From positions 1 to 57,386 of the forward strand of contig DASZRO010000049.1 in the NCBI GenBank assembly GCA_035550055.1: a DNA stretch of 57,386 nt, given 5' to 3'. Source of the stretch: Mycobacteriales bacterium (GTDB taxonomy: Bacteria > Actinomycetota > Actinomycetes > JAFAQI01). A program made the translations under genes and the position numbers. Positions 21,382 through 49,770 of the stretch are shown here, piece by piece. Position 1 is the first letter of the stretch, and each line of letters starts with the position of its first letter. The notes beneath the pieces are model-generated. The model was given only the letters and a program-made list of their open reading frames with translations. It did no database searches and was not told the origin of the DNA.

Positions 21382-22380
21382 CTATCGGCTCGGCGGCCGG
21401 GTCAACGGCCGGGTCAGTTGCCGGCCGAACACGAGCAGGGCCGCGAGCACCAGCAGCGGTACGAGGAAGACCGCCGGATAGTCGAAGCCCCTGGCGCGCG
21501 ACGGCAGCGCCACCAGCCGCGGCGCGATGACGGGTTCGGGCGCCGCCTCACCCGGTGCCTCGCTCGCTCGAGGGGGCGGCGCCAGCCCAGGGACCGCGAT
21601 CGAGGGAGCCGGGCCGGAGTCCGACGCAGCCGACGTGTCTGACGGCGACGGCGCGGGGTTCGACGGCGCGGGGTCCGGCGGCGAGCCCGTCGCCGCGCCG
21701 TCGGTCGTGGCGTTGTCGAGGATGAGGACGGGTGCGGTGGCGGAGCCCTTCGGCCGGGTGTCCGCCGAGACCGTGACGTCGAAGGTCGCGCCGAGTGAGA
21801 GCACCGGCAGCAGCGCAAGGCTGGTGCCCCGCTTCTCGAGGCGAGCGGCGATCGGTTTCAGGCCGATGTCGAGCTCCACCGCCGGGGTTCCGATGAGGTG
21901 GCTGACGGGCGCCCCCTGGCAGTCGACCGGAGGCGGCGGAGTCGTCGCTGCTTCGACGGCCTTGATCGGCGTCGTCGTCGTACACGCCTCGACCTTCGCC
22001 AGGTCCGGTGCGAGCGAACCGTCGAGTGGGCTGGTGTCCAGGGGCAGCCGCAACGTACCGCCGCTGATCGAGGTCGACGGGGGCAGCGGACGGCGCAACG
22101 CGAGGTAGCTGCGGGCCGACTCGCTGCCGCCGGCTGCGCCGATGTGCAACGTGCCGGCCGGGTAGACCTGGGGGAACGGCGACGGGATCGGCAGACAGAT
22201 CGACGCGATGCACAGCTTCGGGCTGCTGTACCAGGCTTCCGCACCCAGCGCGACGACCGTTTCACGGGCGGCGCTGGTGCCGCCGCTCGCGCTGGCGCCC
22301 GCCGACTGGACCGCCAGTGCCCCGGGAGCCAGCGCCGTACCGGTCAGGATCAACGGCAGCGCGTGCCAGCCGGCGTTCAT
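21382..22380 (-). CDS. Exported, C-terminally membrane-anchored protein of the hybrid transporter operon
   Basis: A 332-aa protein. It has an N-terminal signal peptide (HALPLILTGTALAPGALA), a folded Thr/Pro/Ala-rich extracellular part with four Cys (two in KLCIASICLP), a Pro/Ser/Ala-rich stalk (PPDPAPSNPAPSPSDT), then one transmembrane helix (AVFLVPLLVLAALLVFG) and a short Arg-rich tail. No enzymatic motif is seen; the mid-part, with AYLALRRPLPP-like beta repeats, could be a cell-surface structural domain. The ATG at 22380 overlaps the preceding membrane-protein gene (ATGA). As the last gene of the operon it may be a surface-exposed accessory of the transporter. I do not recognise the family with certainty. 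Confidence 0.75.
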   Translation of the reverse strand: MNAGWHALPLILTGTALAPGALAVQSAGASASGGTSAARETVVALGAEAWYSSPKLCIASICLPIPSPFPQVYPAGTLHIGAAGGSESARSYLALRRPLPPSTSISGGTLRLPLDTSPLDGSLAPDLAKVEACTTTTPIKAVEAATTPPPPVDCQGAPVSHLIGTPAVELDIGLKPIAARLEKRGTSLALLPVLSLGATFDVTVSADTRPKGSATAPVLILDNATTDGAATGSPPDPAPSNPAPSPSDTSAASDSGPAPSIAVPGLAPPPRASEAPGEAAPEPVIAPRLVALPSRARGFDYPAVFLVPLLVLAALLVFGRQLTRPLTRPPSR

Positions 22381-22742
22381 GCCCCACCGCGTTTCGCGCT
22401 CGCCCGCCGCGGCCGCGGGCGTGCCGCGGGTGCGGCCACGGGCGGCGCGGCGAGTCGGCGCCGCTCGAGCGCCGCGAGCGTGCCGACCCGCAGGAGCACG
22501 GCGTCGTCGTCGGCGCGCTCGCGTTCGGCACAGGCGCGCCCGACCTGGACGTAGCCGAGGACACATCCGGTCACCACCAGGGCGATGCCACCGATCCCGC
22601 CGCTCACCAACGCCGGGATCTGGTCGAACACGTCGAGGGTGCGGGCAGCGATCACGTAGCCGACCGTGATGGCGACGCCGCCGGCCACCACCAGAGCCGC
22701 GCAGGACCACAGCGCGAGGGCGAGCGGGCTGGACCGCTTCAT
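22377..22742 (-). CDS. Two-helix membrane protein of the hybrid transporter operon
   Basis: A 121-aa protein with two transmembrane helices (ALALWSCAALVVAGGVAITVG and ALVSGGIGGIALVVTGCVLGY) and a basic, Pro/Ala-rich C-terminal tail (PAARPRPRRASAKR) that would face the cytoplasm. No known domain. It overlaps its neighbours by 4 nt on both sides, so its translation is tied to them. Its likely role is an accessory or scaffold of the transporter; this is inference from position. Confidence 0.8.
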   Translation of the reverse strand: MKRSSPLALALWSCAALVVAGGVAITVGYVIAARTLDVFDQIPALVSGGIGGIALVVTGCVLGYVQVGRACAERERADDDAVLLRVGTLAALERRRLAAPPVAAPAARPRPRRASAKRGGA

Positions 22743-23047
22743 CGACCCTGCTCGCTCAGCCGGACGAGCTCGTCGAGGGCGTCGGCCATCCGCAGCGACT
22801 GCGCGCGCCGGGCCGCGGAGTCTCGCAGGCGCACGTCGATCGCGACCAGGGTGACTCCGAGGCAGACGAGGGCGAGTCCCGTGAAGCCCGCGCTCATCAC
22901 GTACGGGAGCTGGAGCGGTACGTCGATCTCGCCCGCCGTCTTGCCCCATGCGACGGTGATGAGCACGAATCCTGCGGCGGTGAGCAGCAGTCCGAGCCAG
23001 GTCCCGAGGTGGGGGATCCGGCGCAGCGGCGCGATCAGGTCCTTCAT
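22739..23047 (-). CDS. Two-helix membrane protein with C-terminal helix, hybrid transporter operon
   Basis: A 102-aa protein: helices at about 16-34 (LGLLLTAAGFVLITVAWG) and 47-67 (VMSAGFTGLALVCLGVTLVAI), then an amphipathic, charged helix (RLRDSAARRAQSLRMADALD). It resembles the next gene in layout, which suggests an old duplication or a paired complex. The ATG at 23047 overlaps the LivHMG stop (ATGA). Family not recognised. Confidence 0.8.
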   Translation of the reverse strand: MKDLIAPLRRIPHLGTWLGLLLTAAGFVLITVAWGKTAGEIDVPLQLPYVMSAGFTGLALVCLGVTLVAIDVRLRDSAARRAQSLRMADALDELVRLSEQGR

Positions 23048-26007
23048 CCGGCTGTCCTCACGAGAGCGGGCGTGCGACTTCGGCTGTCAGGGCGTGGGTG
23101 TTCCGCGTCGATCGATCCCGATCGCTGGATGGCGGTCAGGCTGCCCCCGAGGTAGGCCTCGACGACGTTCGGGTCGTTGCGCACGCGGTCGGGCGTGCCT
23201 TCGGCGATGATCTCGCCGTCGGCCATGCACACGATGCGATCCGCCATGGCCATGATCATCGGGATGTCGTGCTCGATGATGCACAGCGTCAGATCCAGGT
23301 CGCGTTTGAGCGTGGTCAGCAGGTTCTGCAGCGCCTCGGTCTCACACTGCGCGATTCCGGCGCACGGTTCGTCGAGCAGCAGCACCTCGGGCCCGAGGCC
23401 GACCAGGCAGGCGATCTCGGCGATGCGCCGGGTGCCGGTGGACAGGTTCTGGATCTGCGCGGCGCGATAGCGGTCCAGGCCCATCCACGACACGAGCTCG
23501 CGTGCCCGTTGCTCCTTGCGGCGCTCACCGCCGGTCAGGCCGAGAACTGCCGCCGTCAGGGTGCTGGGATCGGTGCGCTCGAGGGAGAGCGTGACGCACT
23601 CGAGAACGGTGAGGGTCGGGAACAGTGCGGCGTCCTGGAAGCTGCGGATCAGGCCGCGTTGGGCCCGGGCCTCCGGGCCGAGCGTTGTGACGTCCTCGTC
23701 GTGGAGGCGCACCTGGCCGGCGTCGGGAGTGGTGAAGCCGGCGAGCAGCTCGAACGTCGTGGTCTTGCCCGCCCCGTTGGGTCCGATGAGGCCGAGCGTC
23801 TCGCCGCGGTTCACCGCGATCGACACGCCGCGAACCGCGTGCACGCCGCCGAATGACTTGACCAGTCCGGTCGCCTCCAGGATCGGACGTACGCCGACCG
23901 GGCGTGGCGGCACGGTCATCGGCGGGGCCTTGGTGGGCGCCGCGATCTCGACCGCGCTCGCACTGCTCGACTCGGCGAGGTACGCCGCCTCGGCGTCGAC
24001 TCCGGCGCGCCGAGCGAGTGCCTTGACCACCGCGTCGCGGAGCGGGGTGAGCACGTGGATGAGGCCGCCGGGCAGATAGACGATGATCAACAGCTGGCCG
24101 AGCGCGGTGCCGGCGATCGCCAGGCTCTGGAGGTGACCGAAGTCGGGCAGCACGAACACGACAAGGGCACCGAGGACGGGCCCGATCAGGCTTCCGATCC
24201 CGCCCACCACGGTCATGACCGTCACCGACAGCCCGTCGTTCGGGTCGAAGCTCGCCCCGCCGAGCGTGAACAGCGAGTGCGCGTAGACCGCCCCACCGAT
24301 GCCGGCGATGAAGCCGGCGATCGCAAAGCCACGAATCTTGATCGCGGTCGCGGGCACCGTGAACGCGCGGGCGTTGTCCTCGTTGTCGCGGACCGCGACG
24401 AACAGCCGGCTCAACCCGCCTGACCGGATGTTGCGCGCGACCGCGAAGCAGACGACGGTCATCGCGAGTGCGAACCAGTAGTAGCGCTTGCCGGTGTCCA
24501 GGTGCACGCCCATGACGGACGGGCTGCCGGGACTCACCCCGTCGTACCCGAACAGCCAGCTCGCCGGAAGCAACCAGTTCGTGACGAGCAGCGCGAACGA
24601 CAGGGTGGTGACGGTGATGAACAGGCCTTTCGCACGGATCGCGAACAGCCCGAGCACCACCATCACGAGCGCGGCGGCGACACCCGCGTAGAGGAAGGAC
24701 AGGACGTAGTCGTGGGTACGCGAGGCGACCTCGTAGCTCGCGATCGAGCCGACCGCCGCGATCCCGAACTGTCCGATCGTCAGCTGACCGCCCAGCCCGG
24801 TGATGATCCCGACGGACAAGCCGACGATCACGAACGACAGGATCTGCGTCATCCGGACCGAGTTCGAGTTGGTGATGCCCAGCGGCAGGACCGCCAGCCC
24901 GGCCAGCACGACGAGCGTGATCGTCGGCGCGAGCGCGCGCACCGCCGGCAGCCGGCGCAACGCAGCAGGGATCGGTGCCGGTGCCGCGACCGTAGCCCAG
25001 GACCCTTTCTCCTCGGACCGGCCGGTGGGCGTCTTCAGGAGCACGAGCGCGCCGACGACGATCAGCACGAACAGGATGAGGCTTTCCACGCCGAGACCGC
25101 CGTAGTTCCAGAGCAACAGCTGCTCCAGGACCCCGATCGCCGTGCCCGCGACGAGAGTGAGCGGCAGGTTGTCCATCCGGCCGATCACCGCGGCGGCGAG
25201 CGCGACCTCGAGCAGCTGCGGGCCGAACTGCCCGGGCTCGACGCTCAACGTCGGCGCAGACATGATCGCGGCGAAGGCGGCGACTCCCGCGCCGAGGGCC
25301 CAGGCGAGCGAGTTCATCCGGCCCGAGAAGATGCCGGCCATCCGGGCGGCCTCGGGGTTGTCGGCCGCGCAGCGCATCGCGACGCCGACTCGGCTGTAGC
25401 GCAGGAACCCGCCGACCAGCAGGACGAGGATCGGCGAGAGGATCAGCATCGCGGAGTATGCCGGTCCGACCTCGAGCGCACCGACCCGGAACGACGGCAT
25501 GCCCGGTGGCGACGGGAAGACCCCACCCGCTCCTGCGCTCGGATCGATCAGCGTTGCGAAGACGACCAGGAACAGCCCTACGCCGAGCGTCGCCACGACA
25601 CTGACCGCGAGCGGCGCCTTGCCGAGCCGGCGGATCACGGCGGTCTCCGTCACCGCGCCCACTGCGCCCGCGATGGCCAGGGCAGGGACAAGTGCGACCC
25701 AGTACGGGAGGTGGGCCTTGGTGACCAGCAAGAAGAACGCCACCGACCCGAACGCGCCCATCTGCCCTTGCGCGAAGTTGATGACCCGGCTGGAGCGGTA
25801 GATCAAAACCAGGCCGACCGCGAGCAGCCCGTAGGTCACGCCGACCGTCAGGCCGAGCACGATGGCCGACGCGGGGGTCTGCCACCTGCCGCTGATCGTG
25901 CCCGAGACGTGAAGGACGTGCGGCAGCAGGAACTCCGCGACGAGGAGCGCAGCCGCGAGGATCGCGACCGTCACGGCGGCGGGGCGCGCCGCCCGGACCG
26001 CCGTCAC
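23044..26007 (-). CDS. LivH-LivM-LivG fusion: branched-chain-amino-acid-type ABC permease/permease/ATPase
   Basis: A 987-aa single polypeptide joining three normally separate proteins. Residues about 1-330 form a LivH-type permease (YGLLAVGLVLIYRSSRVINF, AMRCAADNPEAARMAGI). About 360-650 form a LivM-type permease (ITGLGGQLTIGQFGIAAVGS, AVRDNEDNARAFTV). About 707-960 form a LivG-type ATPase: Walker A GPNGAGKT, Q-loop IRSFQDAALF, Walker B VLLLDEPCAGI and switch His in IIEHD. The ABC signature is LSTGTRR instead of LSGGQ or the usual LivG form. GTG 26007 overlaps the MFS-LivF gene. It should make the membrane core of an importer powered with the partner's LivF-like ATPase. Confidence 0.95.
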   Translation of the reverse strand: MTAVRAARPAAVTVAILAAALLVAEFLLPHVLHVSGTISGRWQTPASAIVLGLTVGVTYGLLAVGLVLIYRSSRVINFAQGQMGAFGSVAFFLLVTKAHLPYWVALVPALAIAGAVGAVTETAVIRRLGKAPLAVSVVATLGVGLFLVVFATLIDPSAGAGGVFPSPPGMPSFRVGALEVGPAYSAMLILSPILVLLVGGFLRYSRVGVAMRCAADNPEAARMAGIFSGRMNSLAWALGAGVAAFAAIMSAPTLSVEPGQFGPQLLEVALAAAVIGRMDNLPLTLVAGTAIGVLEQLLLWNYGGLGVESLILFVLIVVGALVLLKTPTGRSEEKGSWATVAAPAPIPAALRRLPAVRALAPTITLVVLAGLAVLPLGITNSNSVRMTQILSFVIVGLSVGIITGLGGQLTIGQFGIAAVGSIASYEVASRTHDYVLSFLYAGVAAALVMVVLGLFAIRAKGLFITVTTLSFALLVTNWLLPASWLFGYDGVSPGSPSVMGVHLDTGKRYYWFALAMTVVCFAVARNIRSGGLSRLFVAVRDNEDNARAFTVPATAIKIRGFAIAGFIAGIGGAVYAHSLFTLGGASFDPNDGLSVTVMTVVGGIGSLIGPVLGALVVFVLPDFGHLQSLAIAGTALGQLLIIVYLPGGLIHVLTPLRDAVVKALARRAGVDAEAAYLAESSSASAVEIAAPTKAPPMTVPPRPVGVRPILEATGLVKSFGGVHAVRGVSIAVNRGETLGLIGPNGAGKTTTFELLAGFTTPDAGQVRLHDEDVTTLGPEARAQRGLIRSFQDAALFPTLTVLECVTLSLERTDPSTLTAAVLGLTGGERRKEQRARELVSWMGLDRYRAAQIQNLSTGTRRIAEIACLVGLGPEVLLLDEPCAGIAQCETEALQNLLTTLKRDLDLTLCIIEHDIPMIMAMADRIVCMADGEIIAEGTPDRVRNDPNVVEAYLGGSLTAIQRSGSIDAEHPRPDSRSRTPALVRTAG

Positions 26008-28190
26008 GCCACGCCCGCCTTGCTCGCGCCCTCGAGGAAGACGGCCCGCAGCAGGTCGTCGCGCGCCAGCAGCTCGCCCGCCTTCCCGTCGAATCGCATC
26101 TCGCCCTTCTCCATGAAGTAGGCGTGGTCGACGAGGGACAGCGCGATGTTGACCGACTGCTCGACGAGTACGACGGCGGTGCCGGCGGCGTTGATCTCGC
26201 GGACCAGGTCGAGCAACTGCCCGACGACGACCGGTGCGAGCCCGAGCGAGAGCTCGTCGATCAACAACAGCTTCGGCTCGAGGATCAGCGCCTTGCACAG
26301 GCCGAGCATCTGCTGCTCGCCGCCCGACAGGGTGGCCCCCAGCGACGCCTTGCGTTCGGCGAGCCGGGGGAAGGCGGTGAGGCACCGCTCGATGGCATCG
26401 TCGATCGTGCGCTTGTCGGCGCCGAGGGTGTAGCCGAAGCCACGCAGGTTCTCGACGACGGTCATCCGGCGGAAGACGGCGCGACCGCCCGGGATCTGGC
26501 TGATGCCGAGCCGCACCCGACGTTCGGCGTCGAGGTAGGTGATGTCGTCGCCGTTGAGGCGCACGGTGCCGGAGGATGGCAGTCCGATCCCGGAGATCAC
26601 CTTGAGCAACGTCGATTTGCCCGCGCCGTTCGTCCCGAGCAACGCGACCATCTCGCCCTCGTCAACCGTGAAGTCGACGTCGAAGAGCACTTGCAGCTTG
26701 CCGTAGGAGAAGTTGACCCCGGTTGCGGCCAGCAGCGGCGGCCGTCGCCCGTCGCGGTGAAGCGCGGCGAGATCCTGCTCCTCGAGGATGGCGTCGACCA
26801 TCCGGTCGATGTCGCTGTCGATCAGCTTGCCGGCCGACCGTACGACGAGGGAGCCCAACGTGCCGGGGACCAGCAGCGCGATCATCGTCCCCGTCGACCC
26901 GTACTCCTCGTAGACGCTGTTGAGCAACAGCACGCCCAGGATCGCGCCGAACCCGAGGGAGATGCCGATCATCGCGGCGGCGTGCGGCCGGTAGCGCGCG
27001 TCGACGATCGAGAGCACGATCGCGTTCAGGCCCGGCAAGGTGAGCACCAGCGCGGTGATCGCGAATGCGAACATCGCGACCATCGCGATCTTGTTGGGCA
27101 TGACCGCGGCGAGCGCGATGAACAAGACGATGCCGAAGATCGCGTAGCCGACCTGTTCCACGACCTTGGCCGGGCTGTGAGCGAAGGTCGTCTCGGCGAC
27201 CTTGCCGTAGACCAGCAGACCGAGGGTGGCGATGCCGTACGCCGTCGAGATGACGACGCCGCGCGCTGCCGAGTCGAAGTGCCAGCGGTCGACCAGGAAC
27301 GATGACAGGAACGTCGTGAACGGGATCGCGATGATGCCGAACACGAGAGTGCCCACGCAGATCCGCTGGATCGTGGGGATCAGCAGGATCCTCCTGACGA
27401 TCTCGAAGAACCCGAGCTGCGGCCCGCCCTCGACGGCGCGGTCGGCGTGCAGCTGTTCGGTGTCGAAGCGTCCCGCACCCGGGTCCCGAACTCCGATCGC
27501 GCACAGCGAGCTCAGCACCGAGATCCCGCCGAGCACCAGGAACACCCCGCGCCAGGTCAGGTCGAACGGCCCGGTCAGCAGCGACACCAGTAGCGGCGCG
27601 ACGATCTGCCCGACCACGGTGATCGCGCGGTATCCGGTGAGCACCCGCAGCCTGGCCTGTGGCGGATAGGTGTCGGCGAGGAGCGGCGTGTGCAACGCAT
27701 TGACGCTTCCGGTCGACAATCCGTCGGCGACCAGGACGAGAAGCAGTGCGACCAGCGACGTCACGAACCCGGTGAACAGCGTGATGACGCTCCACCCGAT
27801 CGCGGTGATCAGACAGAGCAGGCCGCGCCGCCCCCAGCTGCGGGCGAGTGCGGCCATGGGCAACGGCGCCACCGCCTGGGCCAGGAAGCCCAGCGACTGC
27901 GCCAGCCCGATCAGCCCGAACGACAGACCGAGGGTGTTGCGGACGTCGGGCGCGACGACGACGAGCGCGCTGCCCTGGAACAGGTCGACGAAGCCGAGCA
28001 CCCCCAACGCGACCATCGGGTAGAGCCCGACGCCGTGCTCGCGCAGGACGGCGCGAAGCGACCGCGGATCGTCCTGGGCCGGTTCAGCCTGCGTTCCCTG
28101 CAAGCCGAGTGTTGCGCGGGCGGCCTGACGCCGTGCCGCGAGACGGTCGCCGACCGGCGCCGGCACGGCCGCGCCGTTCGCGGCGGTCAC
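26004..28190 (-). CDS. MFS transporter fused to a LivF-type ABC ATPase
   Basis: A 728-aa fusion. Residues about 50-470 are a 12-helix major-facilitator domain (DLFQGSALVVVAPDVRNTLG; RSWGRRGLLCLITAIGW between helices 2 and 3). From about 485 on there is a complete LivF-like ATPase: Walker A GTNGAGKST, signature TLSGGEQQ, Walker B LLLIDELSLGLAP, and VEQSVNIAL. The Q-loop segment reads SQIPGGRAVF, with Gly where LivF proteins usually have Glu or Gln. No frameshift separates the two parts. GTG 28190 overlaps the lipoprotein gene (GTGA). An MFS carrier is a secondary transporter, so its covalent joining to an ABC motor is mechanistically puzzling; it may supply the ATPase partner to LivHMG. Confidence 0.95.
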   Translation of the reverse strand: MTAANGAAVPAPVGDRLAARRQAARATLGLQGTQAEPAQDDPRSLRAVLREHGVGLYPMVALGVLGFVDLFQGSALVVVAPDVRNTLGLSFGLIGLAQSLGFLAQAVAPLPMAALARSWGRRGLLCLITAIGWSVITLFTGFVTSLVALLLVLVADGLSTGSVNALHTPLLADTYPPQARLRVLTGYRAITVVGQIVAPLLVSLLTGPFDLTWRGVFLVLGGISVLSSLCAIGVRDPGAGRFDTEQLHADRAVEGGPQLGFFEIVRRILLIPTIQRICVGTLVFGIIAIPFTTFLSSFLVDRWHFDSAARGVVISTAYGIATLGLLVYGKVAETTFAHSPAKVVEQVGYAIFGIVLFIALAAVMPNKIAMVAMFAFAITALVLTLPGLNAIVLSIVDARYRPHAAAMIGISLGFGAILGVLLLNSVYEEYGSTGTMIALLVPGTLGSLVVRSAGKLIDSDIDRMVDAILEEQDLAALHRDGRRPPLLAATGVNFSYGKLQVLFDVDFTVDEGEMVALLGTNGAGKSTLLKVISGIGLPSSGTVRLNGDDITYLDAERRVRLGISQIPGGRAVFRRMTVVENLRGFGYTLGADKRTIDDAIERCLTAFPRLAERKASLGATLSGGEQQMLGLCKALILEPKLLLIDELSLGLAPVVVGQLLDLVREINAAGTAVVLVEQSVNIALSLVDHAYFMEKGEMRFDGKAGELLARDDLLRAVFLEGASKAGVA

Positions 28191-28654
28191 GGCGCGCTCT
28201 TCGGCAGGTCGAACTCGCGTACCCACGCGCTCTCGTTGAGTCGGTCGCCGTTGGGTGCGAGGAGTACGACGGTCGCTTGATGACGTTGGCGGGAGGCGCG
28301 GTCGTAGTCGAGGTCGGGGATGATCCGGATCGTGATGTGGTCCTGATCGGTCTCGTACACATTGGTGGCCGCCAGCAGCGCGGGCGTCGCACGGGTGCCC
28401 TTGGGCAGCACCGAGTCGATGTTGTGCCCGACTTTGACGGCTTGCTGGTCGATGAAGATCCCGAAGCGGTAGTCGCCCGGCGGCTTCATCGTCCACGACA
28501 GCGTCACCGGGAGGCGGGTCAGCTGGTCCTCCGCCGGCGCGGTGAAGCTGAGGCGGTGATCCTGGACGAACTCCAACCCGCTGCAGCCGCTGATGGCGGC
28601 GGCGGCCGTGACGGCGAGTGCCGTGGCCGTGAGCGATGGACCGGAGATTCGCAC
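28187..28654 (-). CDS. Small lipoprotein of the hybrid transporter operon
   Basis: A 155-aa protein with a signal sequence ending in the lipobox AISGC (Cys about 24), so it should be lipid-anchored on the outer face of the membrane. The mature part (LPVTLSWTMKPPGDYRFGIF, HITIRIIPDLDYDRASRQRH) reads as a small beta-sandwich. No known domain recognised. The GTG at 28654 starts it and its stop overlaps the MFS-LivF start. It could be a ligand-presenting or gating partner for the importer. Confidence 0.82.
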   Translation of the reverse strand: MRISGPSLTATALAVTAAAAISGCSGLEFVQDHRLSFTAPAEDQLTRLPVTLSWTMKPPGDYRFGIFIDQQAVKVGHNIDSVLPKGTRATPALLAATNVYETDQDHITIRIIPDLDYDRASRQRHQATVVLLAPNGDRLNESAWVREFDLPKSAP

Positions 28655-28661
28655 GGTGTGG

Positions 28662-29462
28662 TCAGGCGCTCGCCGGCGTCGTGGACGCGTCGACCTCGGC
28701 GTAGAAGTCGAGTGCCTCGCGGGTGACCCGCTCGATGTCCATCAGCAGGTAGTTGTGTGCCGCGCCTTCGTAGCTCGACAGCCGGGCGCCGGGGATGGTC
28801 CGGGCGATCTCCTGGCCCTTCTCGTACGGCACGAGGTTGTCCGCCGTGCCGTGCTGGACGAGGGCCGGAACCGAGATCGTGGCGGCGTCGCCGAGCGTCA
28901 TGCTGAACTCGGAGATGCCGACGTGTTGTGCGACGACCCCGCGGGTGGAGAACCGGTCCTTCTTCAACATCGCGTAGTCGCGCCGGGCGACGTCGGCGGG
29001 CACGTTCGGGTAGGCCTTGCTGCCGGTGAACACTCTGAGGACGCCCGGCGGGATCCGTAGGAGCACCGACCCGAGCACCGGATGCGGCTTGACGACCTCG
29101 GTCTTGATGGCCGTGCAGCCGAGGATGAGGGAACGTACCCGCTCCGGCGCGGTGATCGCGAGCTGTTGGGCGATGCCGCCCCCCATCGACACACCCCAGA
29201 CATGGGCCGAGTCGAGTCCCGCCGCGTCCATCACGGCGAGGGCGTCGGCGACCATCTCGGCGACCGACGCGGTCCGCGCCGCCCGGCTCTGCCCGGTGCC
29301 CCGGTTGTCGAACCACACGACGTGGTGCTGCTCGGTCAGGGCGTCGCGCACCGGCCACCACATCTCGGCGCTGTACTTGTGGCCCATGATCAGCAACAGC
29401 GGGGAGCCTTCGCCCTGCTGTTCCCAGTGGATCCGGACGCCGTTGCTGCTGACGAATGGCAT
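28662..29462 (-). CDS. Alpha/beta hydrolase
   Basis: A 266-aa Ser hydrolase of the alpha/beta fold. Nucleophile Ser92 lies in WGVSMGGG, the acid is probably Asp in HGTADNLVPYE, and the His in GAAHNYLLMD. FDNRGTGQSR is the usual loop after strand 4. The 7-nt gap to the lipoprotein and 24-nt gap from the binding-protein gene place it inside the transporter operon. It may hydrolyse an ester or lactone form of the imported compound, freeing an acid for the divergent acyl-CoA synthetase. Confidence 0.88.
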   Translation of the reverse strand: MPFVSSNGVRIHWEQQGEGSPLLLIMGHKYSAEMWWPVRDALTEQHHVVWFDNRGTGQSRAARTASVAEMVADALAVMDAAGLDSAHVWGVSMGGGIAQQLAITAPERVRSLILGCTAIKTEVVKPHPVLGSVLLRIPPGVLRVFTGSKAYPNVPADVARRDYAMLKKDRFSTRGVVAQHVGISEFSMTLGDAATISVPALVQHGTADNLVPYEKGQEIARTIPGARLSSYEGAAHNYLLMDIERVTREALDFYAEVDASTTPASA

Positions 29463-29486: not shown

Positions 29487-31100
29487 TCAGGAGAACGGCG
29501 TGACGGGGCCGGTGTAGTGGAAGCACCGGCAGCTCGAGTCGAAAGCCAACGGTCGGTACGCGCTTGCGCCCGCGTGGTGTTGCGGGTCGAGAGTCGAGGT
29601 GAACGTCACCGCGTCAGCCCGTGACGAGCCCAGCTTGTTGTAGCCGTCGAGCAGGCTGGCTCCGGTGATGTTCGAGGCGCCAGAGGCGTTCGCAGCGGCC
29701 TGGACGAACAGCATGGCGTCGCAGTACTGGAAGGTCGCGAACTCCTGCACGTTGTTGGTGAGCTGGCCGGTCGGCCGCTCGATCTCGGCGCACAGTCGGG
29801 TCGCGGAGTTCTCGAAGACGCTCGACCCGTAGGTGCCGACATCGGCGGTGGGCTGCCAACCGACACCGATCGCGCCGGCCAGCGCGCCGAGGACCATCTT
29901 GGTGTGCGCCTCGGCGAGTGCCCACGGGCTGTCGAGCGAGGTCAGCGCGTACTTGGGGTACCAGTGCTGCTGGTAGGCGTCCTGGATGAAGCTGCCTTCG
30001 ACGCCGGGCGCAAGGAAGAGCACGTTCGTCACGCCGTTCGCCCGCATGTGGAGTTCGTCGTTCGAGACGGTTTGCGCCTCGGCGACGGCCGCCTGCGTCG
30101 ATGGCGGGTACTCGATCCCGTACGAAGTGACCGAGGCCACCCTTCCCTTGAGCATGGGTACGACCACGTCGTTGTAAGCGTCGACCGCTGCGGTCTCGTT
30201 GGTGCCCAGCATGACGCCGACGCGGCTCTTCGAGCTCAGCACGTGGTCGGCCAGCATCGTCTTCACCAGCGCGGACATGACGTCCGTCGTCGTCGCCTCG
30301 TACGGGCTCACGAGGTAAGGGATGTTCCGGTAGGAGTTGTTGTCGTGGAGGTAGCCGCCTCCCGAGACATACGGGATGTGGTGGCTGCTCAGACAGGCGG
30401 CGAGATCGTTCGGGATGGCAAAGCCGACGGCGACGCCGATCGCGACGTGGTGGTCCTGCGTCCAGTCGCTGCAGATCGCCGCCATCGTGGTGGAGTACGG
30501 CTGCGTGCTCGTCAGCGGGATCGAGTAGTAGACCGGTTCGAGGACGTGCCCGGCGAGTCCGCCGTGCTTGTTCACGTAGCCGATGGCCGCGTTGGCGTCG
30601 GTCTGCAGGTTGCCGAGGTCGTCACTGCCCCCGAACAGCTTCGCGAAGGCACCGAGGTCCCCGCTGTAGACGATCCCGACCTCGACCGCCGACAGCTTCG
30701 CGGGACCCTTGTAGACCTTGCCCGTCGGCGTCGGCGTGGACGGCGGCGCGGTGGAACTCGGCGTCGCCGCCGAGGTCGCGCCGGTTGGGGCAGTAGCGCG
30801 CCCGGCGCGGCCCGTCGGGCTGGCGCTCGCCGAAATCGTCGGTTCCGCGCCGCCCGCGGTCGCCCTCGGGACGGCGGGGACCGTGCCGCTCGGACCGGTC
30901 GGGCTCGAGCCGGTCGCGGCGGTCGGGACGACCTCGCCGGGGACGATGACCTGGGTCGACCCGTCGAAGCCTTCGTCGGCACGCTGGCTGAGGACGGCGT
31001 GTGCGTTGCGGACCGTGGTGCCGCATGCCGCCACCGACAGCAGCGCGATGCCGGCGACCGCGGTGGTGCGTAGACGGCTTCGGCGGCTGCTGCGGTTCAT
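29487..31100 (-). CDS. Liv-type solute-binding lipoprotein of the hybrid ABC importer
   Basis: A 537-aa lipoprotein. ATG 31100 (MNRSSRRSRLR) gives a short signal with lipobox SVAAC at Cys26. A long low-complexity Pro/Thr/Ser/Ala linker follows (about 60-130), then a periplasmic-binding-fold type I domain (VEVGIVYSGDLGAFAKLFGG, LQTDANAAIGYVNKHGGLAG, HIPYVSGGGYLHD). This is the family that delivers amino acids, amides or aromatic/short acids to LivHMGF transporters. The linker is much longer than usual and would hold the receptor far from the membrane. It is first in the operon and diverges from the TetR gene. Confidence 0.92.
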   Translation of the reverse strand: MNRSSRRSRLRTTAVAGIALLSVAACGTTVRNAHAVLSQRADEGFDGSTQVIVPGEVVPTAATGSSPTGPSGTVPAVPRATAGGAEPTISASASPTGRAGRATAPTGATSAATPSSTAPPSTPTPTGKVYKGPAKLSAVEVGIVYSGDLGAFAKLFGGSDDLGNLQTDANAAIGYVNKHGGLAGHVLEPVYYSIPLTSTQPYSTTMAAICSDWTQDHHVAIGVAVGFAIPNDLAACLSSHHIPYVSGGGYLHDNNSYRNIPYLVSPYEATTTDVMSALVKTMLADHVLSSKSRVGVMLGTNETAAVDAYNDVVVPMLKGRVASVTSYGIEYPPSTQAAVAEAQTVSNDELHMRANGVTNVLFLAPGVEGSFIQDAYQQHWYPKYALTSLDSPWALAEAHTKMVLGALAGAIGVGWQPTADVGTYGSSVFENSATRLCAEIERPTGQLTNNVQEFATFQYCDAMLFVQAAANASGASNITGASLLDGYNKLGSSRADAVTFTSTLDPQHHAGASAYRPLAFDSSCRCFHYTGPVTPFS

Positions 31101-31134
31101 CGCACCTCGTCGTAGAGCAAGCACTGCGGGCCGG

Positions 31135-31150
31135 ACTATCAGTTGATAGT
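31135..31150. promoter_or_regulatory. Candidate TetR operator 1
   Basis: ACTATCA (31135-31141) and TGATAGT (31144-31150) form a 16-bp dyad with a 2-nt centre in the spacer between the binding-protein gene (31100) and the TetR gene. It lies 35 nt upstream of the binding-protein start, where it would cover a promoter. Confidence 0.55.
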
Positions 31151-31201
31151 TAGCCGTGAAGTAAGCCACCTGCTGTCCTGCAAGTCAAGGAAGGTTTGAT
31201 G

Positions 31202-45465: not shown

Positions 45466-46365
45466 CTAGGACGTGCTGTCCAGCCCGATGTCGAGGCTCG
45501 GGGCAGCGTGGGTGAGCGCGCCGACGGCAAGGTAGTCGACGCCGGTGGCGGCGACGGCGCGGGCGTTGTCGAGCCGCAGCCCGCCGCTGGCCTCCAGGCG
45601 TACGTGCGGCGCACGGCTGCGGACCAGCGCGACTGCCTCCGTCAGCTGCGCCGCGGAGAAGTTGTCCAGCAGGATCTCCGTGGCGCCATGGTCGAGTGCC
45701 TCCCCGAGCTGCGCCAGCGTGTCGACCTCCACCTGCACCACGTACTCGGCTGCGGGGTAGGCCTCGGCGACCCGCTCGAGAGCGGCACCGACCCCACCCG
45801 CCGCGACGACGTGGTTGTCCTTGATCAGTACGGCGTCGTCGAGGCCGCGCCGGTGGTTGACGCCGCCGCCGCAGCGCACGGCGTACTTCTCGAGGTTGCG
45901 AAGTCCCGGCGTGGTCTTGCGGGTGTCGCGAATCCGGGCGCCGGTACCAGCGACGGCGTCAACCCATGTCCCCGTGACGGTCGCGATGCCGGACAGGTGA
46001 CCGAGCAGGTTCAGCGAGAGCCGCTCGATGCCGAGGATGCCGCGCGCGTCGCCGACCACCGTCGCGATCACCTCGCCCGCCGCGATCGGCGCGCCGTCGT
46101 CGGCTCGCCACTCGACGCGGGCCCGGTCGCCGAGGACCAGCTCGTAGGCGGCGAGCAGAACCGGCCCGCCCGCGAGGACCCCGGGCTGGCGGGGGACGTA
46201 GCTCACCGCGATCTCGGTGTGCGGACTCACCGTCGCCAACGACGTGAGGTCACCCCGAACGCCGAGGTCTTCCTCGACGGCGGCCCGGATCACTCGCGCC
46301 ACGTCGCCGGGGTCCAGCCCCGCGCGTTCGAGCAGTGTCGCGGTGCCCGTCCGAAGCTCGTTCAT
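45466..46365 (-). CDS. nadC: Nicotinate-nucleotide pyrophosphorylase (quinolinate phosphoribosyltransferase)
   Basis: A 299-aa enzyme converting quinolinate and PRPP to nicotinate mononucleotide, the third step of de novo NAD synthesis. Family motifs: AVEEDLGVRGDLTSLA, RDTRKTTPGLRNLEKYAV, GGGVNHRRGLDDAVLIKDNH and VQVEVDTLAQ. Complete length. ATG 46365 overlaps the nadB stop (ATGA). Confidence 0.97.
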   Translation of the reverse strand: MNELRTGTATLLERAGLDPGDVARVIRAAVEEDLGVRGDLTSLATVSPHTEIAVSYVPRQPGVLAGGPVLLAAYELVLGDRARVEWRADDGAPIAAGEVIATVVGDARGILGIERLSLNLLGHLSGIATVTGTWVDAVAGTGARIRDTRKTTPGLRNLEKYAVRCGGGVNHRRGLDDAVLIKDNHVVAAGGVGAALERVAEAYPAAEYVVQVEVDTLAQLGEALDHGATEILLDNFSAAQLTEAVALVRSRAPHVRLEASGGLRLDNARAVAATGVDYLAVGALTHAAPSLDIGLDSTS

Positions 46366-47963
46366 GCCGTCCGCTCCAGCGCCGGCCGAGAGCGAGCGAT
46401 CGGTTCGACCGTCGTGACAGGCAGGCCGTCGGCACCGAGCGAGGTGAGCACCCGGTGGCGGTGCCACCATTCGCTGGCGGCGGGATGGTCGTCGCGCCAG
46501 TGGCAACCGCGGCTTTCCCGACGGGTCGACGCGGCGGCGACGACGGCGCTCGCCGCCAGCCACTGGTCTCCGACCGAGTCCGCGTCGTCGACGCCTTGTG
46601 CGGAGGGCATCGAGGCGAGCCGGTCGGCGGCGTCAGCGAGCGCAGCGCCGTCACGCCGGATGCCGGCGTCGTCACTGAGCAGCAGCCGGATGCCGTCGAG
46701 CCGAGCCCGGTTGACCGCGGGCCGCGGTGTGAGGGTGTCGGGCTGCGACGTCGTAAGGGGCAGGCTCAGACACAGCCGCGCGGCGAGCCGGGCACCGAAG
46801 ACGAGTCCTTCGACGAGGCTGTTGGAGGCGAGCCGGTTCGCGCCGTGGACGCCGGTCGCTGCCGCTTCCCCGACGGCGAACAGGCCGCGGACGTCGGTGG
46901 CGCCCCACTCGTCTGTGCGGATGCCGCCGCAGCTGAAGTGCTGTGCCGGTGCGACCGGAATCGGTACGGCGGACGGGTCGATCCCGTGCGCGGCGCATGC
47001 GGCGACGACCGTGGGAAACCGGCTTGTGAGATCGTCGACCGAGGTCGCGTCCAGATAGACCCGGCCGGCCGCGGCGCGTACCTCGGCGACCCGCCTGGCC
47101 ACCACATCGCGCGGCGCCAGGTCGCCGAGCGGGTGGCGGCCGGCCATCACCGGCCGCCCTCGTCCGTCTCGTAGGACCGCGCCTTCACCACGCAGGGCTT
47201 CCGTGATGAGTGGGACCTGGCCCGCGCCGCCACCGGTGTCGAGGGCGGTGGGGTGGAACTGGACGAACTCCAGGTCGGTCAGGGTTGCGCCGGCTCGAAG
47301 TGCCAGCCCGAGCCCGGCGCCCGTGACCTCCGCCGGGTTCGTCGACGTGGTGAACAGGCCGCCGATTCCCCCGGTGGCGATGACGACCGCTGCGGCCGAC
47401 AAGACCTGCTCACTGCCGTCAGGGCCGACGGCGACGACCCCTCGCACCGCCCGGTCCAGCCCGCGCCCGACGGTGAGCAGGTCGCGCGCCTCGGTGTGCT
47501 CGAGGATGTCCACGTCGTGCTGTCGAACCGCCGTGGCAAGACTGCGACTGACCTCGGCGCCGCTGGCGTCGCCGCCGGCGTGCGCGACCCGCCGCTGACT
47601 GTGGCCGCCTTCTCTGGTCAGCGCGATCCGGCCGAACCCGTCGCGGTCGAGCCGGGCGCCGCGTCGTAGCAGATCACAGACCGCTTCGACCGCCGAGCCG
47701 GTGAGGATCTGGATCGTGGCCGGATCGCCGAAGTCACTGCCCGCCGTGACGGTGTCGACGGCGTGGAGCGACGCCGAGTCATCCTCGCCCAACGCCGCGG
47801 CAAGCCCACCTTGCGCCCACGTGGTGCTGCCGCCGCGCAGCTCGCCGCTCGTGACGAGTGCGACCCGGCGTACGCCGGCCAGGCCGAGTGCGGTGGCGAG
47901 CCCCGCGACGCCCGACCCGATCACGACGACGTCGTAGAGTCCGTCGGCGCGCGCGCCCGTCAT
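46362..47963 (-). CDS. nadB: L-aspartate oxidase
   Basis: A 533-aa FAD enzyme oxidising L-aspartate to iminoaspartate. The FAD loop [16 protein letters not shown] is at the N-terminus, then [17 protein letters not shown], the substrate-side HPTALDTGG, and [20 protein letters not shown]. The C-terminal helical domain carries REESRG-type residues ([16 protein letters not shown]). It overlaps both nadA and nadC by 4 nt, consistent with channelled production of quinolinate. Confidence 0.97.
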
Positions 47964-48958
47964 TCCCCGCCGCCTGGGGTGCCGATCGCGATCATCCGTT
48001 CGACGGCGCGGCGCGCGCGGGCCGCGATGGGCTGCGGGACGTCCACCTCGTCACGCTCTTCGCGCAAGCTGGCCAGCAGCAGCTCCGGGGTCGTCATCTT
48101 CATGTAGCGGCAGGACGCCTTCGGGTTCATCGGAAGGAACGTCACTCGTTCGTTGGCGAGCCGCAGCTGGTGGAGCATCCCGATCTCGGTCGCGACCAGC
48201 ACCGTCGGGGTGGACAGCTGCGGCGCAAGCTCAGCCATGCCGCCCGTCGACAGGACGTGGGTGCGATCGGCCGGCAGGTCCCCGGTGTCGGCGAGATAGA
48301 GGGCGGAGGTGGCGCACCCGCACTCGGGGTGGATCAACAACGAGGCGTCGGGGTGCGCTGCAACCTGCGCGCGGACGTCGGTGGGGGAGATCCCGGCGTG
48401 GACATGGCACTCGCCGAGCCACACGTGCAGGTTCTCGCGACCGGTGACGCGCCGGACGTGCGCGCCGAGGAACTGGTCGGGAAGGAAGAGCACGGGCTGG
48501 TCGGCGGGGATCGACGCGACGACGTCGACGGCGTTGGAGGAGGTGCAGCAGACGTCGGCTTCGGCTTTGACCGCAGCGCTGGTGTTGACGTAGGCGACGA
48601 CTGCCGCATCCGGGTGCTCCGCCTTCCACGCCTTGAGCTGGTCGGCGTCGATGGTGTCGGCGAGCGAACACCCGGCCTCGGCGGTCGGGATCAAGACCTT
48701 CTTGTCAGGGGCGAGCAGCTTCGCCGTCTCGGCCATGAAGTGGACGCCGCAGAACACGATGATCGCGGCGTCGGTGCGCGCCGCCAGGCGCGACAGTGCC
48801 AAGGAGTCACCGACGTGATCGGCGACGTCCTGGATCTCCGGCCGCTGGTAGTTGTGGGCCAGCACCACCGCCTGTTTGCTTCGGGCGAGCGCGCGTATCT
48901 CTTCGCGCCAGTCGGCGGACGTCGCACAAGGCGCATCGGCCAGATCGCTCGCAGTCAT
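47960..48958 (-). CDS. nadA: Quinolinate synthase A
   Basis: A 332-aa [4Fe-4S] enzyme condensing iminoaspartate with dihydroxyacetone phosphate. It has the NadA triplicated fold: [52 protein letters not shown] and [11 protein letters not shown]. Cys residues in these motifs provide the cluster ligands. ATG 48958 is chosen over a longer frame reaching 49075, which would cross the operator. First gene of nadABC. Confidence 0.97.
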
Positions 48959-48985
48959 GGTTGCCTCCAGCGGCGTCGCCAAACC

Positions 48986-49010
48986 GGTTTTCGCCTCAAA
49001 GGCGAATACC
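48986..49010. promoter_or_regulatory. Candidate NrtR operator between nadA and nrtR
   Basis: A 25-bp dyad with GGTTTTCGCCT on the left and AGGCGAATACC on the right around CAA. Ten of eleven arm positions match, and the inner 7 bp on each side are perfect (48990-48996, 49000-49006). It lies between the nadA start (48958) and the nrtR start (49036), as expected for NAD-regulon control by NrtR. Confidence 0.8.
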
Positions 49011-49035
49011 TGTACCCGAACCGTAGCATTGCCGG

Positions 49036-49770
49036 GTGCCCGCTTCCGCCGCCGGACCCCCTGCCGCGTCCGCAACGCGGCCGGTCCCCAACCGGCCGGC
49101 GTACCCGCACGAGGTGGTGGCGGTCGTGCTGTCGGTGCGCGAGGGCGTGTTGTCGGTGCTGATGTGGCGGCGCGCGCAGGCGCCGTTCGTCCGGCGGTGG
49201 GCGCTGCCCGGAGGAGGGGTCGGGGAGGACGAGCGGCTGCGCGCCGCGATCCTGCGTCATCTCGCCGAGAAGGTGGACGTCACCGAGGTCGCCTATCTCG
49301 AGCAGCTTGCGACCCACAGCAACATCAAGCGCGACCCCCGAGGGCGCGTCCTCGCGACCGCCTATCTCGGGCTGGTGCCGTCTTCCGTCGTACCTGACCT
49401 GCCGCCGGACACCGGCTGGCACCCGGTGTGCGACCTGCCGCCGACGGCGTTCGACCACGCCGACTTCATCAGCGCCGGAGTGGAACGGCTGCGGGCGAAG
49501 CTGACGTACACCAACATCGGGTTCGCGCTCGCACCCGAGGAGTTCACGATGTCCCAGCTGCGCGACGTGGTCAGCGGCGCCCTCGGCTACTCGGTCACCC
49601 AGACGAACCTCGCCCGGGTCATGACCCGTCGGCAGCTGATCGAGCCGACCCGGGCGCGCAGCCAGCCGGGGCCGGCCGGCGGGCGGCCCGCCATGCGCTA
49701 CCGGTTCAGGTCGCGAGAGCTGGCGGTGACCGATCCGTTCGCTGTGCTCAAGCCCAGTCGTCGAAGGTGA
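49036..49770 (+). CDS. nrtR: NrtR-type Nudix-fold transcriptional regulator of NAD synthesis
   Basis: A 244-aa protein: an N-terminal Nudix domain ([45 protein letters not shown]) and a C-terminal winged helix ([29 protein letters not shown]). The Nudix box lacks the REUxEE catalytic Glu residues, as in NrtR proteins that sense ADP-ribose or related nucleotides instead of hydrolysing them. It diverges from nadABC and faces the palindrome. Starts at GTG 49036. Its 3' end overlaps the convergent FadE gene by 73 bp. Confidence 0.92.

Follow-up and report, generated by a model that had tools for sequence, protein, structure and literature searches.

Among the described systems closest to the locus reported here is E. 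coli LivKHMGF (HAAT family, TC 3.A.1.4). Like that system, the locus encodes two BPD_transp_2 permeases, a LivG-type and a LivF-type ATPase with Gln at the LivF H-loop position, and an upstream binding protein (putative here). Unlike it, the locus carries H, M and G in one chain, F is fused to an MFS domain and lies upstream, and several extra genes are present. The LivG signature reads LSTGTRR instead of LAYGDQRR, and the LivF Q-loop position is Gly instead of Glu. Two ATPase structures are also related. Thermotoga TM1139 (1JI0) is LivF-like and shares 40% identity over the LivF domain, the Walker/signature layout and the VEQ H-loop, but it is a single domain with a VPEGRR Q-loop. MJ1267 (1G6H, 1GAJ) is LivG-like and shows the same fold and about 30% identity to the LivG domain, whereas it too is a single domain. 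The predicted 12-helix MFS fold is that of OxlT and other MFS carriers, from which the domain differs in low sequence identity, a missing motif-A Asp and the fusion to an ABC ATPase. It is customary to regard primary transporters (ABC) and secondary ones (MFS) as distinct machines. The two ATP sites of an ABC dimer are each built from Walker motifs contributed by one domain and a signature contributed by its partner. Heterodimeric ABC exporters such as TM287/288, TAP and ABCB11, in which one site is degenerate, resemble the present system in having two composite sites that are unequal by sequence. PMC7544095 gives as a hallmark of such exporters that the degenerate site lacks its catalytic Glu. 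In contrast, both catalytic Glu residues are present here, in what has the look of an importer.

The window (the whole stretch of DNA analyzed, 57,386 nt) comes from a 3.5 Mb genome in 122 contigs. The two fusion genes and the genes of their chain are all on the minus strand. The first fusion gene (23044..26007) is one open frame of 987 aa plus stop with a GTG start at 26007. Pfam found two stretches of BPD_transp_2 (PF02653, 156 bits), ABC_tran at residues 726-883 and the LivG C-terminal motif BCA_ABC_TP_C (PF12399, 42.5 bits) at residues 932-955. The frame and these domains bear out the triple fusion that the earlier note had read from the sequence. The LivH-type permease domain covers residues about 46-323 (25039..25872) as judged by PF02653, hydropathy and the predicted model. 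An extra N-terminal hydrophobic helix (residues 10-28, 25924-25980) lies ahead of it; near relatives have this helix and distant relatives do not. The LivM-type permease domain (residues about 354-668, 24004..24948) was assigned from the second PF02653 stretch, likeness to relatives and the predicted model. It is followed by a linker of residues 669-708 (23884..24003), part of which was modeled at low confidence (pLDDT about 48-74). The LivG-type ATPase domain occupies residues 709-955 (23143..23883). Its best NCBIfam model is LivG, and its score against the LivG equivalog (200 of 362 bits) is under the curated cut-off. The signature LSTGTRR is found at residues 855-861 (23425..23445), the Q-loop Gln at residue 791 (23635..23637) and the H-loop His at residue 913 (23269..23271). 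The AlphaFold model of the whole chain has a pLDDT of 83.1 and a pTM of 0.84, and ATPases were the sole matches listed in a Foldseek search with this model as the query. An assembly artefact or frameshift as the origin of the frame was ruled out, since fused frames of this homologous kind number about 100, of which this genome has four. It was concluded that the frame from 26007 to 23044 is a LivH-LivM-LivG triple fusion (LivHMG) with the signature LSTGTRR.

The partner gene (26004..28190) encodes an MFS-LivF fusion of 728 aa and overlaps LivHMG by 4 nt. The listed frame of 830 aa runs into the preceding gene, and the GTG at 28190 is the likely start. A 12-helix MFS domain is found at residues 57-479 (26754..28022; PF07690, MFS_1, 100 bits). 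The AlphaFold2 model of the chain (41 sequences; pLDDT 86.2, pTM 0.83) shows 12 long helices in this domain, the last of which ends at residue 479; the ATPase begins at residue 487, 8 residues on. By structure comparison (VIA-align) OxlT is the top match to the predicted domain (Z 40.9, rmsd 3.0, 380 residues, 13% identity). Many other carriers score close to OxlT, so no substrate can be deduced for the MFS domain. The LivF-type ATPase domain (residues 487-722, 26025..26732) matches ABC_tran, and its best NCBIfam model is LivF (189.9 bits). This amounts to 190 of 441 bits against the LivF equivalog, which is under the curated cut-off. At the Q-loop position the sequence reads IPGGRA with Gly568 (26487..26489). 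The signature LSGGEQQ (residues 621-627, 26310..26330) is canonical, and the H-loop position is occupied by Gln678 (26157..26159).

Six minus-strand genes, running from a putative lipoprotein through MFS-LivF, LivHMG and two small two-helix membrane proteins to an exported protein, are linked by 4-nt overlaps. The first (28187..28654) encodes a small putative lipoprotein of 155 aa with a lipobox-like ISGC, whose relatives adjoin other copies of the fusion pair. The two-helix proteins (22739..23047, 102 aa, in a cluster of 12 loci, and 22377..22742, 121 aa) are in tandem and mutually related, and similar small proteins are also found 3' of other copies in the genome. The last gene (21382..22380) encodes a putative exported protein that has a membrane helix at its C-terminus and no Pfam match; its relatives adjoin all three other copies in the genome. 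Upstream of the chain, also on the minus strand, are an alpha/beta hydrolase gene (28662..29462, 266 aa, assigned by Pfam) and a putative substrate-binding lipoprotein gene (29487..31169, with ATG at about 31100 as the likelier start); genes for a TetR regulator and for an acyl-CoA ligase are divergent from both. The putative binding lipoprotein has no Pfam match of its own. It has relatives in 51 loci, and relatives match Peripla_BP_6, one of them at 39.5 bits (cut-off 31.7). The neighboring genes vary from copy to copy. P450s, acyl-CoA dehydrogenases and the acyl-CoA ligase are encoded nearby, none of which names a substrate for the importer. A steroid catabolism context was considered and rejected: the FAD_binding_2 protein at 46362-47963, by Pfam a possible ketosteroid dehydrogenase, is L-aspartate oxidase adjoining quinolinate synthase. 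These two NAD synthesis genes (46362-49075 of the window) are located near P450, MFS and acyl-CoA dehydrogenase genes. Scans for promoter and terminator patterns gave nothing above chance, and comparison with PHROGs gave nothing useful.

The genome carries three more close LivHMG fusions (52-57% identity) and exactly three more MFS-LivF fusions, one beside each of them, so that pairing is 4/4. Canonical LivFs, which the earlier note had considered as possible partners from elsewhere, do exist in this genome, but they are mostly found beside their own LivG where the flanks were examined. The note's proposal that the second ATPase comes from MFS-LivF is supported by the 4/4 pairing, by the 4-nt overlap and by the fusion of F to G in other loci. 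About 100 homologous LivHMG/LivF pairs were found across Actinomycetota. Among the genomes of the class (246), LivHMG is matched in 22 at E<=1e-150, and MFS-LivF in 25, from 14 of 103 genera, at E<=1e-85. A genome scan gave 80 loci from Frankiales, Kribbella, Haloechinothrix, Actinomadura, Pseudofrankia, Micromonospora, Nocardioides, Acidimicrobiia and others. LivF overlaps the fused LivHMG frame by 4 nt in 74 of 93 loci. In one locus (L168, 4689-9853) LivHMG is seemingly split over two frames beside MFS-LivF, by a frameshift or sequencing error. Nine loci (L169, L170, L171, L173, L175, L178, L179, L181 and L182) carry the domains re-partitioned as [LivH-LivM] and [MFS-LivF-LivG], a layout confirmed by Pfam in L179 and L182; the signature in the nine loci is LSTGSRR or LSTGTRR. 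More distant fusions are also present in the genome of the window, among them ones with LivH, LivM, LivF and LivG in a single chain (G000, contigs C5, C20 and C31; loci L017, L018 and L019). The constant adjacency with a 4-nt overlap, the pairing of all four copies and the re-partitioning of domains suggest that the five domains form one complex, for which the [MFS-LivF-LivG] chains in particular argue. Together with the single-chain fusions, they also support F-G pairing and a 1:1:1:1 core.

The LivG and LivF ATPases were paired in 133 loci, 97 of the LivHMG clade and 36 ordinary. Walker A and Walker B are intact in both ATPases, and the Walker-B catalytic Glu is present in 133/133 of LivG and of LivF. 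The Q-loop Gln and the H-loop His of LivG are likewise invariant (133/133 each). The LivG signature is LSTGT in 92 of the 97 clade pairs, the rest being LPTGT, LPTGV and LSTGL; in the ordinary pairs it is mostly LxYGx and never LSTGT (0/36). At the LivF Q-loop position the clade has Gly (71 pairs) or a one-residue deletion (26), so that Glu is replaced in all 97, while ordinary pairs have Glu in 34/36 and Gly in 1/36. The two substitutions are thus not common in ordinary LivG/LivF pairs; had they been, this would have spoken against the earlier note. The H-loop position in LivF is Gln in every pair (97/97 clade, 36/36 ordinary). E. coli K-12 LivF reads VPEGRR at the Q-loop and LVEQN at the H-loop, as does 1JI0, and E. 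coli LivG reads LAYGDQRR and EHD. By the architecture of the ABC dimer, every oddity falls in one composite site, formed by the LivF Walker motifs and the LivG signature, and the other site is consensus.

These results modify the earlier reading of the motifs. It was right that LSTGTRR is non-canonical and that the partner has Gly at the Q-loop position; the ordinary LivF residue replaced there is Glu and not Gln, and LSTGTRR as a private local defect is ruled out by the 92 clade pairs with LSTGT. The odd letters are a marker of the family rather than a local defect. The inequality of the two ATP sites stands by sequence, with both oddities in the same site. Since the LivF H-loop Gln is also present in ordinary pairs and in E. 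coli LivF, the asymmetry is mostly an ancestral LivF/LivG trait that has been extended in this clade. In a tree built without the motif columns the 97 clade rows are united in a single group (SH-aLRT 97). Its sister, row L165, is intermediate in state, with an LSYGT signature and a Gly Q-loop. The changes in signature and Q-loop have one origin, and hence their joint occurrence is not independent evidence of co-adaptation. The motifs could be neutral lineage markers with equal hydrolysis at both sites. The single origin fits this explanation, as do the Ser and Gly kept in the LivHMG signature here and the fact that E. coli LivF, which is part of a working transporter, is already without His and Gln. 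However, the Q-loop and signature changes are constant in Actinomycetes as well as in Acidimicrobiia and lie at one and the same site, and we consider neutrality unlikely. It is highly improbable that the changes have abolished ATPase activity and left a receptor or sensor in place of a pump: the unusual signature and Q-loop in one site speak for this, but Walker A, Walker B and the catalytic Glu are intact in both domains and the second composite site is consensus in the whole clade. The weak composite site of the earlier note is a prediction, set beside a signature that keeps its Ser and second Gly here and a catalytic Glu in each Walker B.

We propose that LivH-LivM-LivG and MFS-LivF, two large chains probably present in one copy each, would assemble into a HAAT-type (branched-chain-amino-acid-like) ABC importer, which may be fed by the upstream putative binding lipoprotein. 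The main ATP hydrolysis would most likely take place at the consensus site, composed of LivG Walker A/B, Q791 and H913 with LivF LSGGE. At the second site, which combines LivF Walker A/B, G568 and Q678 with LivG LSTGT, ATP is probably bound and hydrolyzed slowly. The F-G fusions support the F-G pairing that underlies this assignment. The last helix of the MFS domain is followed by a short linker to the LivF N-terminus, which should place the domain next to the importer. The domain is most likely a secondary carrier tethered there, with a related compound as its substrate, as in the export of a product, a surplus or a counter-solute. As a whole, this chain of a HAAT-type importer with one strongly hydrolyzing ATP site and a tethered MFS carrier is held with moderate confidence. 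Within it, assembly of the importer from two fused chains is likelier than a carrier function of the MFS domain. The sequences directly show the fusions, the overlaps, the motifs and their conservation; the stoichiometry, the formation of the complex, the difference in hydrolysis and the MFS function are inferred from them.

A different arrangement would have LivF energize or gate the MFS domain as an ATP-coupled carrier, with LivHMG separate or with a LivF homodimer. In the loci examined the MFS domain, where present, is always on one chain with LivF and the linker is short, which fits such a carrier. Yet almost all copies whose flanks could be used have LivG adjacent or on the same chain, the nine re-partitioned loci have F and G fused together, and LivF on its own is without the H-loop His. 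This arrangement is quite improbable.

The MFS domain itself is accessory and not the core of the importer, because some lineages have LivF without it (loci of Nocardioides, Mumia, Actinoplanes and Catellatospora). On the tree the MFS label, which was assigned by BLAST similarity, must have been gained or lost three times or more, and some rows labeled as having another N-terminus are really MFS (e.g., L093 and L015, MFS_1 in Pfam). LivF with other hydrophobic N-terminal domains and no MFS_1 match is encoded in L117 (4948-6243), L094 (3415-5532) and L106 (7632-9971). The motif-A Asp in loop 2-3 is replaced by Gln in 94% of 32 close relatives and by Arg in the MFS-LivF studied here. Loss of this Asp could mean altered or lost transport. 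The domain may then be a transport-dead anchor or regulator, keeping LivF at the membrane or sensing a ligand, in an otherwise ordinary HAAT importer. The MFS domain is also the fastest-diverging one between copies in the genome (42-43% identity where aligned, compared to 71-77% for LivF and 64-68% for LivG), and the MFS-free lineages as well as the multi-helix LivF N-termini without an MFS_1 match in Micromonospora and L117 fit such a role. Against it, a full 12-helix fold is predicted and an inert anchor would not need 12 helices kept across classes. In helix 4, His167 is 100% conserved and Asp156 91% among the 32 close relatives, and Acidimicrobiia members retain a motif-A-like ADR. We regard a transport-dead anchor or regulator as rather doubtful. 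A functional hybrid, with the ABC importer and the MFS carrier permanently joined and coupled in function (e.g., uptake driven by ATP together with export of a product or counter-solute by the MFS carrier) and widespread in Actinomycetota, is possible and is put forward tentatively.

The transporter family, HAAT-type ABC importers, is known, and the variant with a tethered MFS domain appears to be new. No report of an MFS-ABC importer fusion in the LivHMG/MFS-LivF arrangement was found in the literature searched, which is weak evidence of absence, and the same literature gave no report of the LivF H-loop substitution. The MFS carrier welded to an ABC-importer ATPase, with the five domains variously partitioned, would provide a natural test system for ABC-MFS coupling. 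LivF is without the usual H-loop His in all pairs examined and in E. coli, and unequal ATP sites can thus be tested in a standard laboratory organism.
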